Assembly (NCBI GenBank): GCA_003224085.1
Contig: QHYK01000049.1
Span: 62,001 to 126,000, forward strand
Source of the DNA: Acidobacteriota bacterium
GTDB lineage: Bacteria > Acidobacteriota > Terriglobia > Acidiferrales > UBA7541
Length of the DNA stretch: 64,000 nt
Direction of reading: 5' to 3'
In this document: positions 56,074 to 63,133 of the stretch, piece by piece
Position numbering within the stretch: position 1 is the stretch's first letter
Layout: each line of letters begins with the position of its first letter
Position numbers and translations under genes: made by a program
Notes under the pieces: generated by a model
The model's database searches: none
What the model was told of the DNA's origin: nothing
What the model saw: only the letters and a program-made list of their open reading frames with translations

Positions 56074-56241
56074 CAGGAGTACCAACGTTACTGGAACTCT
56101 TATCGCTTCTTAGCTTTGGCCGGTGCAAGTGACAGGGATCAAGGCCGTTAGATCAGTTATGTAGTTGGGTGAAGTTGACGCGCGGCGGGTTCGACCGGCC
56201 TAGTTATGCCCGTCAATCTTACATGCTCTGGGGGAGCATTT

Positions 56242-58257
56242 ATGGCCTCATTTGCCCGCATCGGAGAGGAACCGGCGGTCGCGCCAGCGCAGGCGCCGTT
56301 GCAAGAGCAAGACTGGGCCGAGCGCATCGAAAAAGCCATTGAGCGAGGCGCCAATCATCTTCTTTCTCTTCAAGCCGAGCAGGGCTACTGGCAGGGCGAA
56401 CTCGAAGCCGATTCCACTCTGGAATCCGATTACATTTACTACCTGCACGTTCTGGGCAAGGCCGATCCCGAGCGCATTGCCAAGCTCGCAAATTATGTCC
56501 GCCAGCGCCAACTGCCCGACGGCGGCTGGAGCATTTATCCCGGCGGACCTTCGGAGCTGAATGCCACTTGCAAAGCATACTTCGCGTTGAAACTCGCGGG
56601 AGAGTCGCCTTACGCGCCGAACTTGGTGCGCGCGCGCGAAATGGTGCATCGCCTTGGCGGTCTTGAGCATTCCAATTCTTATGTTCGCTTTTACCTGGCG
56701 CTCGTGGGCGCGGTGAGTTGGGACCTCGTTCCGTCGATTCCTCCGGAATTAATGCTGATTCCCCACTGGTTCATCTTCAACATTTACGAGATGTCTTCGT
56801 GGACTCGCGGCATTGTGATCCCCATGGCAATTCTGTCGGTGTTGCGCCCCAACTGGAAGTTGCCGGAGCGCGCTCACGTTGACGAACTGTTCAAGGATCC
56901 TGAGCACAAGACAGCTGCTCTGGATTGGAGCGACCAACTCCTTTCCTGGAAAAACGTCTTCCTGGCCGTGGACCGCGGATTCAAACTGTACGAAAAGTTT
57001 CCCTGGAAGCCATTCCGTAGTCGAGCGATTCGCGAAGCCAAATCCTGGATGCTGAATCATCTTGAACGCACGGAAGGGCTCGCCGCCATCTACCCTGCGA
57101 TAATGAACTCGATTTTCGCCCTGATGGCGCTTGGCCACGGCCCGGAAGATCCTCTCACTTACCGCGAGATCAAAGAATTCTCGCGCTTTGAAATTGAAGA
57201 GCGCGACACGATTCGTATGCAGCCGTGCGTTTCACCTGTTTGGGATACCTGCATCGCCATGGTCGCCCTGGAAGAAGCGGGGCTTCCGCCGGACCATCCG
57301 GCTCTGGTCAAGGCCGCGGAGTGGCTCCTCTCGAAACAAGTGCTCGGCCCTGGTGACTGGCAGGTCAAGGACAAAGACGCCGAGCCCGGCGGCTGGGCCT
57401 TTGAATTTCGCAACGATTTTTATCCTGATGTCGACGACACCGCCTTTGTTCTGATGGCTCTCCAGCGCGTAAAGTATCCCGAGCCTGCGCGCATGGAAGC
57501 CGCGATGTGCCGCGGCATTCAATGGCTCCTCAGCATGCAGAATCGGGACGGTGGCTGGGGTGCGTTCGACCGCGACAATGACAGAAAATTCCTCTGCAAC
57601 ATTCCCTTTGCCGATCACAACGCTATGATTGACCCTTCGACAGCCGACGTCACCGCTCGTGTCGTTGAGTGCCTCGGCCGCTATGGCTGGCCTGCCGACC
57701 ACCCCGTCATTCAGCGCGCGGTGAGGTTTCTGCTGCAAGATCAATGCAAAGACGGTTCGTGGTTCGGCCGCTGGGGCGTCAACTACATTTACGGAACGAG
57801 CGGGGTCCTGCGCGCTCTGGAAACCGTTTCGCTCGCCACGCGAGAATTCTGCCAGCGCGCGGTCAACTGGCTCCGCAGCGTCCAGAAAGTGGACGGCAGC
57901 TTTGGCGAATCGCTTCTCAGCTACGATTTGCCTGCCGCCAAGGGGCAGGGCCCCAGCACCGCCTCGCAAACCGCGTGGGGACTCATCGGCCTGCTCGCGA
58001 GCGCGGGAGTGGAAGACTCTGCGGTCAAGAAAGCAGTGGCTTACCTGGTTCATCGCCAGGAAGCGGATGGTTCCTGGAGCGAGCCGGAATTTACCGGCAC
58101 CGGTTTCCCCGGCGTCTTTTACCTGAAGTACCATCTTTACCGGAATTCGTTTCCGGTTTACGCTCTCGCACGCTACTCCAATCAATCGCGCAAAGTGGAA
58201 GACTACGCGGCCGTGAAGTTCAAACCCAGCGAGTTCCGGCAGCGCAGCGGGATCTAA
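56242..58257 (+). CDS. shc: Squalene-hopene cyclase
   Basis: Shc turns squalene into hopene, the core of hopanoid lipids, at the membrane. The 671-residue protein has the protonating DXDD motif (DVDDTAF, about residues 396-402). QW repeats are present (for example QAEQGYWQGELEADSTLESDY, QNRDGGWGAFDRD, QEADGSWSEPEFTGTGFPGVFYLKYHLYR). The ATG at 56242 has GGGGGAG upstream; a start at 56206 is less likely. It heads the hopanoid operon, followed 5 bases later by the HpnH-like gene. Confidence 0.97.
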   Translation: MASFARIGEEPAVAPAQAPLQEQDWAERIEKAIERGANHLLSLQAEQGYWQGELEADSTLESDYIYYLHVLGKADPERIAKLANYVRQRQLPDGGWSIYPGGPSELNATCKAYFALKLAGESPYAPNLVRAREMVHRLGGLEHSNSYVRFYLALVGAVSWDLVPSIPPELMLIPHWFIFNIYEMSSWTRGIVIPMAILSVLRPNWKLPERAHVDELFKDPEHKTAALDWSDQLLSWKNVFLAVDRGFKLYEKFPWKPFRSRAIREAKSWMLNHLERTEGLAAIYPAIMNSIFALMALGHGPEDPLTYREIKEFSRFEIEERDTIRMQPCVSPVWDTCIAMVALEEAGLPPDHPALVKAAEWLLSKQVLGPGDWQVKDKDAEPGGWAFEFRNDFYPDVDDTAFVLMALQRVKYPEPARMEAAMCRGIQWLLSMQNRDGGWGAFDRDNDRKFLCNIPFADHNAMIDPSTADVTARVVECLGRYGWPADHPVIQRAVRFLLQDQCKDGSWFGRWGVNYIYGTSGVLRALETVSLATREFCQRAVNWLRSVQKVDGSFGESLLSYDLPAAKGQGPSTASQTAWGLIGLLASAGVEDSAVKKAVAYLVHRQEADGSWSEPEFTGTGFPGVFYLKYHLYRNSFPVYALARYSNQSRKVEDYAAVKFKPSEFRQRSGI

Positions 58258-58262
58258 AATAC

Positions 58263-58994
58263 ATGATGCGCTTGCCAGCGCGACTTACGGCAAAACTGGT
58301 GAAGGTCCGAGTCTCGCGGATTTTCGGTTCTGCGCCGGAGAGTCCTCTCGTTTATGGCGTGGATCCTGCGGAAGTTCTCCATCCCGGTTCTAACGCGCCG
58401 GTTTCCCGCGAAAAAATGCGGGAGCTTGTCGCGAACCCGGCCCCGGTAATCTGGATTGGCGACAGCGAACCGCTGCTCCACGCGGGTGTTGGCCACTTTG
58501 TGCGCGCGATTGTGCAGAGCCGGCACTGTGTTTTCCTTGAGACCGACGGGACCCTCCTGCGGCGCCGCGTTCACGAATTTCAGCCGCTCGCTGAATTGTT
58601 TTTGACCGTTCGCCTCAACGCACTCGAAAGCCCTGAGCATGCCCCTGCTATCGAGGGACTGCGCGCGGCGCGGATGTCTGGCTTTTTCACGGTGATCCAC
58701 TCGATTGTTCGCGAAGATTCTGACCCTGCGCCCCTCCGAGCTCTCCGCACATTTGTTTTCGAGAAGGACATAGACGGTTGGTTGATTACCGCGGAATCCT
58801 CGGCCGAAGCCGCCACCCGCAAAACCATTGAAGCTCGTGGCTTGATCCCAAGCACTTTCTGGCGTCAATTCTCGAAGCACGTCGAAGAGGCGCTCCTATC
58901 ACAAACCCAGGGTCGGGAATCGCGCGTTACTTCTGCTCCGCTCGCGGAGAGTTCGCCCGCAGAGGTGCACGAAGAAGGCGTGGAGATCGCATGA
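58263..58994 (+). CDS. HpnH-like protein lacking the radical SAM cysteines
   Basis: HpnH is the radical SAM enzyme that joins adenosine to hopene. The 243-residue protein here keeps much of the pattern after the iron-sulfur region: APVIWIGDSEPLLHAGVGHF (from about residue 60; GxxEPL as in GGEPL), CVFLETDGTLLRRRVHEFQP and FLTVRLNALESPEHAPAIEG. The segment that should hold CxxxCxxC is reduced to YGVDPAEVLHPGSNAPVSRE. The protein has one Cys only (Cys89). It cannot bind a 4Fe-4S cluster as radical SAM proteins do. It may be a non-catalytic partner or a reused fold. It overlaps hpnA (ATGA) and follows shc by 5 bases. Confidence 0.75.
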   Translation: MMRLPARLTAKLVKVRVSRIFGSAPESPLVYGVDPAEVLHPGSNAPVSREKMRELVANPAPVIWIGDSEPLLHAGVGHFVRAIVQSRHCVFLETDGTLLRRRVHEFQPLAELFLTVRLNALESPEHAPAIEGLRAARMSGFFTVIHSIVREDSDPAPLRALRTFVFEKDIDGWLITAESSAEAATRKTIEARGLIPSTFWRQFSKHVEEALLSQTQGRESRVTSAPLAESSPAEVHEEGVEIA

Positions 58995-60019
58995 CTACGC
59001 TGGTCACGGGCGCTTCGGGCTTCCTGGGGAGCCACGTAGCGCGACAGCTCGTGGCGCGCGGCGAAGACGTGCGCGTGATCATGCGCCCTTCGAGCACCAA
59101 TCGCGCCGTCGCGGATCTGTCCCTTGAGTATGTCACCGGCGATTTGCGCGACGCAGCTTCGGTCGCGCGCGCCATGCAGGGAGCCAAGCGCGTCTTCCAT
59201 GTCGCCGCTGACTACCGCTTGTGGGCCAGGTGCAAACAGGACATTTACGATTCCAACGTAGGTGGCACGAAAAATCTTCTGGACGCTGCCATGCGCGCCG
59301 GGGTCGAGCAGTTCATCTACACCAGCACCGTCGCCACAATCGCCGTGGACCGTCCGCAGCATCCCAACGAATTCACTGACGCCCGCCTGGAAGAAATGGT
59401 CGGCCACTACAAGCGCTCCAAGTGGATGGCCGAGCAGGAGGCGCTCAAAGCCGCGAAGGCCGGCTTGCCCGTTATTGTCGTGATGCCTACCACGCCTGTC
59501 GGCCCTTGGGATTGGAAGCCCACGCCGACTGGCAAAATCATCCTGGATTTTCTCAACGGCAAAATGCCGGGCTACGTGGAAACCGGTTTGAACTTCGTCG
59601 CCGTCGAAGAGTGCGCCGCCGGCCACTTACTGGCGGCCGAAAAAGGCAAAGTCGGCGAGCGTTATCTCCTTGGCGGCGAAAATCTGACGCTGAAACAGTT
59701 GCTTGAGACACTTTCTCGAATCGCTGGCCTGCCCGCGCCCAGGATGAAAATACCTCATGGCCTCGCATTAGGTGTAGCCTATGCCAATACTGTTTTTTCC
59801 CGACTTCTCGGCCGCGAGCCCGGAATCCCCATCGAAGGCGTGAAGATTGCCCGGCACTTGATGTTTGTGGATTGCTCGCGCGCGAAGCGCGAGTTAGGTT
59901 TCAAGGCAGGTCCGGTCGCGGCCGGGCTCGAGCGCGCCGTGCGCTGGTACGAAAGGAATGGCTACGTTTTGCCGCATCGCGCCAAGCGGATGGCCCGTGC
60001 GCGCGCCCGCGCCGCCTAG
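58991..60019 (+). CDS. hpnA: Hopanoid-associated sugar epimerase (HpnA)
   Basis: The 342-residue protein is a short-chain NAD-dependent epimerase: MTTLVTGASGFLGSHVARQL (Rossmann), then VFHVAADYRLWAR, YTSTVATIAV and the catalytic YKRSK (YxxxK). HpnA is the hopanoid-linked member, whose exact substrate is unsettled. It ends in a run of Ala/Arg (RMARARARAA). The ATG overlaps the stop of the HpnH-like gene; the next gene lies 122 bases on. Confidence 0.92.
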   Translation: MTTLVTGASGFLGSHVARQLVARGEDVRVIMRPSSTNRAVADLSLEYVTGDLRDAASVARAMQGAKRVFHVAADYRLWARCKQDIYDSNVGGTKNLLDAAMRAGVEQFIYTSTVATIAVDRPQHPNEFTDARLEEMVGHYKRSKWMAEQEALKAAKAGLPVIVVMPTTPVGPWDWKPTPTGKIILDFLNGKMPGYVETGLNFVAVEECAAGHLLAAEKGKVGERYLLGGENLTLKQLLETLSRIAGLPAPRMKIPHGLALGVAYANTVFSRLLGREPGIPIEGVKIARHLMFVDCSRAKRELGFKAGPVAAGLERAVRWYERNGYVLPHRAKRMARARARAA

Positions 60020-60118: not shown

Positions 60119-60141
60119 TTGATTTTCTCTTGCGGAGCCCG

Positions 60142-60921
60142 ATGCGAGTCCTCGTAACATTTGCCGTGGAAGGCGAATTCGCCCCTTGGCTGGCCCTACG
60201 CAAGTTTCACGTGCGAAGGTTGGTCCCGGACCAGGGGTCGGGCGGCTTAAAAGTGTATGAGGCGGAATCGGGCGGCAACACCGTTTGGGTCCATCTCACG
60301 GGCATTGGTGCAGGAATGCGTAAGGGCCTGTTCCCGCTCGGCATTTGTGCGAGACAAGCTGGTGTAGATGTGCTCATTTCTTCCGGGTTGGCGGGGTCTT
60401 TGAAGAAGGAACTGGAAGTCGGAGAGGTCATTGTTCCGCGCCGCGTCGGGACTCTCCGTGATGCAGCTGGTGTAGAGGCGCATGCTGGTCTGGTGCAAAT
60501 TGCCGCGCACAGCGGCTCAAAATTGGTTGAGGTCTTACTAACGGCAGATCACATCGTGGAGACGAGCGAGGAGAAGAACAGACTGGCATCTTGGGGAGAC
60601 GCCGTCGACATGGAGTCGTATGCAATTATGCGCGATCTTTCGGGCGAAGGAATCCCTGCTGTCACTATCCGCGCCGTCAGTGATGCAAGCGACGAAGATC
60701 TGCCGATTGATTTCAGTGCATGCCTGACGACAGAAGGCAACGTCAAGCCTTTACCGCTCCTGATGCGTCTGCTGAGGCGGCCAGCGAAGACTGTTGATTT
60801 AGTTGGCTTCGGTGTAAGGAGCAAAAGAGCCGCCCGCAATCTAGCCGAATTCTTAGACTCTTTTGTTGCCGCGCTCAATCCCGAGGCAATTAGGAAAGAT
60901 ATCGGAGTCGCCGCCCAATGA
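60142..60921 (+). CDS. hpnG: Adenosylhopane phosphorylase-type nucleoside phosphorylase (HpnG)
   Basis: HpnG removes adenine from adenosylhopane to give ribosylhopane phosphate. The 259-residue protein has the PNP/MTAN fold: VLVTFAVEGEFAPWL, GIGAGMRKG and SSGLAGSLKKELEVGEVIVP. VDMESYAIMRD (about residues 154-164) supplies the ligand Glu pattern, followed by RAVSDASDEDLPIDF. The ATG at 60142 has GGAG 5 bases upstream. It overlaps the next gene (ATGA). Identity as HpnG relies on operon context as well as fold. Confidence 0.88.
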   Translation: MRVLVTFAVEGEFAPWLALRKFHVRRLVPDQGSGGLKVYEAESGGNTVWVHLTGIGAGMRKGLFPLGICARQAGVDVLISSGLAGSLKKELEVGEVIVPRRVGTLRDAAGVEAHAGLVQIAAHSGSKLVEVLLTADHIVETSEEKNRLASWGDAVDMESYAIMRDLSGEGIPAVTIRAVSDASDEDLPIDFSACLTTEGNVKPLPLLMRLLRRPAKTVDLVGFGVRSKRAARNLAEFLDSFVAALNPEAIRKDIGVAAQ

Positions 60922-62024
60922 GTAGCGCCTCAAGCATCGCCACGGAATCGGGTGTACCCGGTCCCATCCCCAAGACCATGCGCGCTGGCGTCTTCCGTGA
61001 CAAGGGCATCGTGCGCGTCGAAGAAGTTCCTGTGCCCGAAGTTGGCGATGGCGAAGTGCTCATCAAAGTTGCCGCCTGCGGTGTCTGCGGCACCGACATC
61101 AAGAAGATTTTCCATCGCTATGTCGAGCCGCCGCAAATCCTTGGCCACGAGCTTGCCGGCACCGTCGTCGCAGTCGGCGTGGGGGTCACGCAATGGAAGC
61201 CCGGCGACCGCGTCATGAGCTTTCATCACACCCCTTGCGGCAAGTGCTTTTATTGCGACCGTCGCCTGTTCTCCCAATGCAAGCAATACAAAACCACTGG
61301 CCTGACCGCCGGTTTCACGCCCAACGGCGGCGGCTTCGCCGAATACGTCAAGGCCATGCCTTGGGTCGCCGAACGCGGCATCGTGGTGCTTCCGGATAGC
61401 GTTACCTTCGAAGAAGCCACGTTCATCGAGCCCATCAACACCATTCTGAAAGCCGTCCAAAAGGCTCGCGTCGCCGCCGGAGAAACGGTCCTTGTCATCG
61501 GCTGCGGTCCTATCGGCCTCCAGCTCCTCATGGTCGCGAAGCTCGCCGGTTCTCTTCTTTACACCAGCGACCCCATGGCCGTCCGCCGTGCCAAGAGTCT
61601 TACCCTGGGAGCGATTGAGTCGTTTGACCCCAGTGGTGGTAAGCTGGTGCAGGAGATAAAGGCCCGTACGGAGGGCCGGGGGGCTGATGCCGTTCTGGTG
61701 GCGGTGGCGCATCCCGCGGTGGTCGTGGAGGCGCTGGCTGCGGCGAGGCCCGGTGGGCGAGTCCTTTTGTTTGCCGCGAACGATCCTGTCACCAAGATCG
61801 AATTTCCTGCAGCCGCTGTGGGGATTGACGAAAAAGAAATCCTGGGCAGCTATAGCGCCGCCGTGGACATCCAACAGGCGGCGGCGGAATTGGTGCTCCA
61901 CAAGAAGCTTCCAGTCATAGATATTGTGACGCACCGTTTTCCTCTGGATAGAATTCAAGAGGCCTTGGAGCTAGCGGCCCGGCCCACGGAGGAGTCACTC
62001 AAGGTTCTGATCACACACAAATGA
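60918..62024 (+). CDS. Zinc-dependent medium-chain dehydrogenase, first of a tandem pair
   Basis: The 368-residue MDR protein has the catalytic zinc Cys (CGVCGTDIKK, Cys57), LGHELAGTVV, a structural zinc cluster (CGKCFYCDRRLFSQC) and a Rossmann loop VIGCGPIGLQL. MDR enzymes oxidise alcohols or sugars with NAD(P). The substrate here is unknown; a step on the hopanoid side chain is inferred from position only. ATGA overlaps with both neighbours. Confidence 0.88.
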   Translation: MSSASSIATESGVPGPIPKTMRAGVFRDKGIVRVEEVPVPEVGDGEVLIKVAACGVCGTDIKKIFHRYVEPPQILGHELAGTVVAVGVGVTQWKPGDRVMSFHHTPCGKCFYCDRRLFSQCKQYKTTGLTAGFTPNGGGFAEYVKAMPWVAERGIVVLPDSVTFEEATFIEPINTILKAVQKARVAAGETVLVIGCGPIGLQLLMVAKLAGSLLYTSDPMAVRRAKSLTLGAIESFDPSGGKLVQEIKARTEGRGADAVLVAVAHPAVVVEALAAARPGGRVLLFAANDPVTKIEFPAAAVGIDEKEILGSYSAAVDIQQAAAELVLHKKLPVIDIVTHRFPLDRIQEALELAARPTEESLKVLITHK

Positions 62025-63133
62025 GGATCACCACCAAGAAGACGGAAATAGGCGAAGAATTGAAAACTGCTGCCACACGCGCCGCGGTTCCATCCAAAAT
62101 GACCGCTGCCGTTCTCTACGGTAGCGAGGATCTTCGTATCGAAATGATCGACGTGCCTTCGCTGGCCGCCGGCGAAGTGCTTCTCCGCGTGCGCCTCGCG
62201 CTCACAGATGGCACCGATCTCAAAGTCTGGAAGCGCGGTTACCACGCCCGCATGATCCAGCCCCCGGCAGTTTTCGGCCATGAACTCGTCGGCGACATCG
62301 TCGCCTTTGGCAAGCGCGTTGACCCTCGATGGCGAATCGGCATGCGCGTGGTCGCGGCAAATTCCGCGCCCTGTCTGCGCTGTTACCACTGTCGGCGTGG
62401 CCAGGAGAATCTTTGCGACGATTTGCTCTTCAACAACGGCGCCTATGCCGAATACATGCGTATCCCCGGCCGCATCGCCGTGGAAAACATGCTCGAAGTG
62501 CCCCACTCCGTGGATGATCAAAGCGCTGCGCTTGCAGAGCCTCTTGCCTGCGTGCTTCGTGGCATCCACGAAATGGAGTTGCGCACCGGTGACACCGTTG
62601 CCGTGATTGGCTGCGGGCCAATTGGGCTGAAATTCGTGCGCATGCTTTCGCGGCGCGGGATCCGCGTTATCGCCGTTGCGCGCCGCACGGCGCCTCTCGA
62701 CGTGGCTCAACGACTCGGCGCCGTCGACACCATCAACGTGAATGAGGTTGAAGACGTGGTTGCGGCGGTGAAGAATCTTACGGAAGATCAGCGCGGCCCG
62801 GACGCCGTGGTCGAAGCGGCCGGCAATCCCGCGACTTGGAGTCTGGCGCTGGCCATGGTGCGCCGCGGTGGCGTGGTGAATTTCTTCAGCGGGCTGCCTT
62901 CCGGCACCCACGTCGAAATCGAGCCTGCCGCTATTCACTATTCCGAAATCAAGCTCATCTCCACGTTCCATCACACACCTCGCTTTTTCCGCGAAGCCCT
63001 GGAAGCCATTCGCCACGGGGACATTTCCGCGCATGACTTTGTCACCGAAGAAATTCGTCTGGCGGACTTGCCGCAGGCCTTCGAGCGCATGAAGACCCGC
63101 AGCGGCGAGATCAAGCTGGCCGTCCGGCCCTAG
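62021..63133 (+). CDS. Medium-chain dehydrogenase with altered catalytic zinc site, second of a tandem pair
   Basis: The 370-residue protein keeps the structural zinc cluster (CLRCYHCRRGQENLC), FGHELVG (His87, Glu88) and the Rossmann loop VIGCGPIGLK. The first catalytic ligand is Asp: ALTDGTDLK has Asp63 where Cys is usual. Whether Asp can replace it is unknown. About 25 extra N-terminal residues precede the fold. It may form a heteromer with its upstream neighbour. The repeat element and hpnC follow after 60 bases. Confidence 0.85.
   Translation: MRITTKKTEIGEELKTAATRAAVPSKMTAAVLYGSEDLRIEMIDVPSLAAGEVLLRVRLALTDGTDLKVWKRGYHARMIQPPAVFGHELVGDIVAFGKRVDPRWRIGMRVVAANSAPCLRCYHCRRGQENLCDDLLFNNGAYAEYMRIPGRIAVENMLEVPHSVDDQSAALAEPLACVLRGIHEMELRTGDTVAVIGCGPIGLKFVRMLSRRGIRVIAVARRTAPLDVAQRLGAVDTINVNEVEDVVAAVKNLTEDQRGPDAVVEAAGNPATWSLALAMVRRGGVVNFFSGLPSGTHVEIEPAAIHYSEIKLISTFHHTPRFFREALEAIRHGDISAHDFVTEEIRLADLPQAFERMKTRSGEIKLAVRP

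Follow-up and report, generated by a model that had tools for sequence, protein, structure and literature searches.

The gene between shc and hpnA in the hopanoid operon of a soil acidobacterium encodes pseudo-HpnH, a short descendant of the shc-linked form (type A) of the radical SAM protein HpnH that has lost its iron-sulfur cluster motif. It occupies positions 58263 to 58994 (+ strand) of the window, i.e. the whole stretch of 64,000 nucleotides analyzed here, which belongs to a source genome of 6.8 Mb in 159 contigs. The identification is based on translation, NCBIfam, the corresponding slot in relatives, an AlphaFold model and profile comparison by hhalign. On balance, we lean towards the reading that a second HpnH (type B), encoded elsewhere in the genome, took over from the operon copy, and that the remnant in the operon is a selected non-radical accessory of the hopanoid pathway.

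All features of the window described below are located on the + strand. The reading frame of pseudo-HpnH starts 5 bases 3' of the stop codon of shc (squalene-hopene cyclase, 56206 to 58257; over the cut-off of NCBIfam TIGR01507), and its own stop codon overlaps the start of hpnA (hopanoid-associated sugar epimerase, 58991 to 60019; over the cut-off of NCBIfam TIGR03466) as ATGA. Further downstream follow an hpnG-like phosphorylase gene (60130 to 60921; 116.8 bits, under the cut-off of 187.1) and two overlapping alcohol-dehydrogenase-like genes (60918 to 62024 and 62021 to 63133, together 60918 to 63133; matches under the cut-offs). The hpnG-like gene is fast-evolving, with a mean identity of 40% versus 89% for hpnA in a clade of seven genomes, and of 53% versus 83% in three genomes with intact HpnH. 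The initial annotation, made from the window sequence, had described the product encoded between shc and hpnA as a protein of 243 residues with Cys89 as its single cysteine and without CxxxCxxC, and translation confirmed this description in full.

Radical SAM enzymes are characterized by a motif of three cluster cysteines and a GGE loop. The window protein has none of the three cysteines and carries a GDSE region in place of GGE, and CxxxCxxC is absent from all 25 short forms found in the genus (see below), the window protein included. The NCBIfam HpnH model TIGR03470 matched the window protein over profile positions 63 to 209 of 318 (E = 6e-13), with a score of 48.5 bits that lies under the equivalog cut-off of 225.05 bits. 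Comparison by hhalign of a profile of 23 short forms with one built from 10 intact type A HpnH proteins gave a probability of 100% (E = 1.5e-40) over 216 aligned columns at 22% identity, and paired GDSEPLLH with CGGEPLIY and LETDGTLL with LCTNGMFI. Together with the TIGR03470 match, this alignment indicates that the stretches GDSEPLLH and LETDGTLL, previously matched to HpnH by eye, are real. Both the sequence alignment and hhalign place the missing cluster loop at residues 35 to 48 (58365 to 58406), where intact type A has CNLTCTGCGRIREY. By the same evidence, VIWIGDSEPLLH (residues 62 to 73; 58446 to 58481) is the counterpart of IVSICGGEPLIY, and VFLETDGTLLRRRVHEF (residues 90 to 106; 58530 to 58580) that of IYLCTNGMFIRKRMHEF, with Glu93 standing for the cysteine of CTNG that is invariant in intact type A.

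HpnH is described in passages of PMC12583986, citing Sato et al. 2020 and 2021, as the adenosylhopane synthase, and the catalytic cysteine of Zymomonas HpnH is reported as Cys106; we infer that the CTNG cysteine is its counterpart. The window protein is homologous to HpnH over residues 2 to 196 and has the same place after shc as type A of relatives, but it is shorter (243 versus 333 to 385 residues) and lacks, besides CxxxCxxC, the CTNG cysteine and a C-terminal region with four cysteines, a loss additional to those described initially. Since it has neither the cluster motif nor the C-terminal cysteines, and Glu for the CTNG cysteine, it would not be expected to make adenosylhopane from hopene by any known route.

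An AlphaFold2 model computed from cluster-less sequences alone reached a mean pLDDT of 85.6 and a pTM of 0.82 and displayed six strand-helix units; the tail (residues 224 to 243; 58932 to 58994) had a pLDDT below 50. Searched with Foldseek, the model retrieved radical SAM proteins at ranks 1 to 22, with BlsE as the best (7.9e-09), and pyruvate kinase at rank 23, at modest TM-scores of 0.37 to 0.54 by query length. VIA-align 2, used for a second look at Foldseek's own matches, ranked 7bi7, which we take to be a NifB entry, at the top (Z = 13.0, rmsd 3.8 over 197 residues), and its first row outside the radical SAM proteins was a designed protein (Z = 10.4). Searches by sequence gave a weak radical SAM match alone in Pfam (E = 0.01, under the gathering score) and one chance-level match among solved structures (E = 1). 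From the model and the alignments, the window protein is predicted to fold into a partial barrel of six strands that is homologous to that of radical SAM proteins. The degenerate radical SAM fold that had been proposed is thus supported by AlphaFold, Foldseek, VIA-align 2 and hhalign, and the profile and Foldseek searches suggested along with it placed the protein among radical SAM and HpnH proteins and not in an unrelated family. An unrelated family with a chance resemblance was ruled out by hhalign, Foldseek and genomic position.

We surveyed the slot between shc and hpnA in 36 genomes of the genus. An intact copy is present in three of them (G007, G009 and G010; 384 to 385 residues, CNLTCTGC) and a full-length copy with a broken motif in four (G020, G021, G034 and G035; 347 to 350 residues), the cluster motif being altered to CVSPCNGT, WASSCGGA, CMGNCGGS or RAGACGGS. 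All four broken copies keep all four C-terminal cysteines. Twenty-five genomes, including that of the window, have a short form of 204 to 289 residues (204 for the frameshifted copy of G011) with neither the cluster nor the C-terminal cysteine region; the short forms share the slot and an MRFP-like start with intact type A. By position, the window gene corresponds to the type A HpnH that relatives carry between shc and hpnA. Three genomes no longer have the gene: hpnA begins 9 to 10 positions after shc in G022 and G033, and 29 positions after it in G005, as extrapolated from an hpnA match starting at residue 38. A search of these three genomes with the A1 profile found type B alone and no slot gene elsewhere. 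In the remaining genome, G015, the contig starts inside hpnA and the slot is unreadable. The broken full-length copies (L038:3850-4899, L037:4072-5115, L034:4795-5835 and L035:4032-5072) score 253 to 262 bits against the NCBIfam HpnH cut-off of 225, so that automatic annotation would call them HpnH.

A sequencing or assembly artefact was ruled out, because in 24 other genomes of the genus the slot likewise holds a short form without the cluster motif. The initial annotation had named as a sign of such an artefact that orthologues in related genomes carry the cysteines; some relatives do carry them, but the artefact itself is refuted by the loss being common to 25 genomes. For the same reason the loss is old, and not recent as had been considered.

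Outside the genus, eight of nine loci with shc or hpnA nearby have type A with CNLTCTGC (G036, G037, G046, G047, G051, G053, G059 and G060; both flanking genes visible in five of the eight), and G050 has type B after shc. No short form was found among 53 other genomes of the family (E = 1e-8). Among 399 sampled genomes of the class and 396 of the phylum, matches over 200 bits occurred in the genus only, among the matches listed (to E = 1e-45 and 1e-53).

The second, cysteine-bearing hpnH that the initial annotation proposed to look for is present in the source genome. It encodes a type B protein of 375 residues with CNLACAGC and lies on contig C43, outside the hopanoid operon, next to what appear by eye to be a lipA-like and an AMP-ligase-like gene. 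Type B was found in 32 of the 36 genomes of the genus, with CNLACAGC in every case; it was not matched in the three genomes with intact type A, or in G016, which carries a short form and is 86% complete. Within the genus, a genome whose operon copy is damaged, shortened or absent nearly always has a type B with the cluster motif elsewhere. The type B of G005, which has no operon copy, matches profile positions 3 to 288 of 318 only, and neither it nor the type B of G033 passed a pattern check for the C-terminal cysteines. Typing of the 53 other family genomes by bit score with the A1 profile assigned 34 to type A (two as split genes) and 11 to type B, with one ambiguous (G292) and seven without a match; both types together were found in none of them. 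As intact genes, types A and B look mutually exclusive within the family. Within genus g26, the bit score assigns some species to A and others to B, suggesting that replacement happened repeatedly. One genome of 4% contamination (G002) carries a third HpnH, distinct from the others, in which CNLTCTGC is accompanied by a long insert (L119:1474-2835, on a contig of 3,253 bases); it stands upstream of another shc-like gene and is possibly foreign or contamination.

Residue conservation was evaluated in 21 of the 25 short forms (alignment A2, without G011, which is frameshifted, G029, which contains a run of N, G003 and G027). The 10 intact type A proteins have 132 invariant positions in common. 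At 15 of these the residue survives in 17 or more of the 21 short forms, and at 86 it survives in two or fewer. No invariant cysteine of intact type A is kept in more than two short forms, and C252, C269, C300 and C303 (numbering of intact G010), the C-terminal cysteines read from the alignment as HpnH-defining, are kept in none. The kept positions appear to be mostly Pro, Gly and others that are likely structural. Almost every polar position that does not vary in intact HpnH has changed, so that conservation lends no support to hopene or SAM binding at the former site.

At 20 positions, a residue found in no more than one of the 10 intact proteins is present in at least 17 of the 21 short forms; these new residues include W64, H73, E93, H146 and W200. 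W64 and W200 are invariant in all 21 short forms, and the position of W64 is occupied by Ser in all 10 intact proteins. Some of the 20 changes are mild (e.g. K to R), one sits in the tail, and F91, R101 and S204 also occur in broken forms. The new residues might belong to a repurposed non-radical enzyme, such as an isomerase or a hydrolase, in which W64, H73, E93 and H146 would mark a new active site: these four are fixed in 21, 20, 17 and 18 of the 21 short forms, respectively, unlike in all 10 intact proteins, and their residue numbers put them in strands 2, 3 or 5 of the model or in the loop after strand 2. However, no catalytic family was found beyond the faint Pfam radical SAM match and the chance-level hit to a solved structure mentioned above, and we regard a new enzyme of this kind as quite unlikely.

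The order of the losses was approached with three trees. In a tree of 74 HpnH proteins, built like alignment A1 without G011 and G029 and by a quick method that carries a long-branch warning, type B lies on one side of a branch and the short forms on another, and the broken full-length forms branch off between the short forms and all others; B is separate from the intact A, the broken full-length and the short forms alike. F91 and S204 are common to all 21 short and all four broken full-length forms, whereas W64 and W200 occur in the short forms only, and this pattern of sharing suggests one shared step. Loss of the cluster first and truncation later fits both this tree and the shared residues. 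In a tree of shc plus hpnA, the broken full-length group is placed inside the short-form group, and AU tests, which left out G015, rejected a grouping of the short forms, whether the genomes lacking the gene were added to it or not (p = 0.001 to 0.01). With an rpoB tree of 23 of the 27 genomes asked, which is less clear, a clade of the short forms alone was rejected (p = 0.016), and one of the short forms with G033 was not (p = 0.069); in the protein version of this tree, the broken full-length group lies near the base. Given the disagreement between the three trees, there may have been one truncation or several.

Selection was evaluated by a codon model in 14 of the 32 genomes with a slot gene, arranged in three clades (7, 3 and 4 genomes), with the last 10 codons left out. 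In two clades in which all members carry the short form, omega was 0.221 (7 genomes) and 0.319 (3 genomes). Fixing omega at 1, with kappa held at its freely fitted value, lowered lnL by 169 and 27 units (a doubled difference of 338 and 53), and omega = 1 was thus rejected; pairwise estimates agreed in direction. The retention of the gene in the operon pointed out initially hence corresponds to purifying selection. For hpnA, shc and type B in the same genomes omega was 0.022 to 0.059, i.e. the short form is under roughly 4- to 15-fold weaker constraint than its neighbours. The broken full-length forms gave an omega of 0.104, compared with 0.042 to 0.043 for the comparison genes.

When the window gene was subjected to simulated neutral evolution at 0.63 substitutions per site (the mean pairwise dS within the 7-genome clade, divided by two), it acquired 6.6 stops on average and remained stop-free in none of 500 runs; at 0.1 substitutions per site, the figures were 1.7 stops and 18% stop-free. 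Among the 24 readable short frames 23 are open, the 25th (G029) containing the run of N. The frame of G011 is shifted near residue 36, between FVDAAP and SPVIWIGG (L117, just upstream of 4243, - strand), by either real decay or an assembly error. The short form is no plain pseudogene. The gene is dispensable, as three of the 36 genomes are without it and one has it frameshifted. These missing and frameshifted copies, the relaxed omega and the survival of 15 out of 132 positions are what might be seen if the gene were a slowly decaying, functionless relic heading for deletion, a course apparently completed in three relatives. Such a relic is unlikely in view of the rejection of omega = 1 in the all-short-form clades, the neutral simulation, the open frames and the fixation of new residues.

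A stop-start overlap (ATGA or GTGA, in frame with hpnA) is present in 23 of 25 short, four of four broken full-length and three of three intact copies; in G001, G003 and G025 it uses a start slightly upstream of the extrapolated hpnA start. In the window, the DNA of the tail also holds GGAG (58982 to 58985) before the hpnA start, together with the ATGA overlap, and conservation of the tail (EEGV.IA) therefore says little about the protein. Both features would be expected if the frame were a ribosome path only, its translation feeding hpnA through the overlap and its amino acid sequence being irrelevant. The constraint on amino acids, however, lies well upstream of the tail, as the omega values without the last 10 codons indicate, G004 and G006 keep the frame without the overlap, and in G022 and G033 hpnA directly follows shc with no frame between; we thus judge a mere ribosome path to be very improbable. 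Both the functionless relic and the ribosome path are weaker explanations than an accessory protein.

For the accessory protein that we favor, we propose the following course of events. The type B HpnH would have taken over adenosylhopane synthesis, and the operon copy would then have lost its cluster first and its C-terminal cysteine region later. The remnant would no longer cleave SAM and would serve as a non-catalytic accessory of hopanoid synthesis, a role we infer because its core is constrained, new residues have been fixed and its place in the operon has been kept. It may bind hopene or adenosylhopane, or dock to Shc, HpnA, HpnG or HpnH-B, and the operon would tie its dose to that of its partners; binding or docking would be the simplest role that fits. 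The scaffold or regulator role put forward in the initial annotation is likewise hypothetical. A tentative and rather doubtful further proposal is that pseudo-HpnH serves HpnH-B, or a Shc-HpnA-HpnG assembly, as a cluster-less partner subunit that holds or hands over hopene or adenosylhopane. If so, a radical SAM pseudoenzyme would be regulating or channelling the very reaction once catalyzed by its ancestor.

Known systems resemble the proposed accessory in part. The heme chaperones HemW and CgdH2 are binding proteins with a radical SAM fold that act in the same pathway as their enzyme relatives, as proposed here for pseudo-HpnH, but they keep the cluster or its motif, CgdH2 (Cj0363c) having a typical CX3CX2CXC motif and E. 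coli HemW harbouring a [4Fe-4S] cluster (passages of PMC10320005), whereas the window protein is without the motif. A precedent for cooperation between two radical SAM subunits is the heterodimer Dph1-Dph2, with Fe-S clusters bound by both subunits (PMC11048331); a dimer of pseudo-HpnH with HpnH-B is hypothetical. Hopanoid cluster B (ispA, shc, hpnH) is described as fragmented in subdivision 2 in PMC5462960, the main text of which does not contain the words truncated and pseudogene. A full-text literature search yielded no paper about a cluster-less HpnH, as judged by titles and the starts of abstracts. Radical SAM proteins acting as chaperones were known already.

These findings bear on the prediction of bacteriohopanepolyols from hpnH calls, which can mislead, as the four broken full-length forms pass the NCBIfam cut-off. 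Moreover, one genus displays HpnH in the same slot as intact, as full-length without the motif, as short, selected and cluster-less, and as absent, and thus offers a natural series on cluster-free radical SAM folds.
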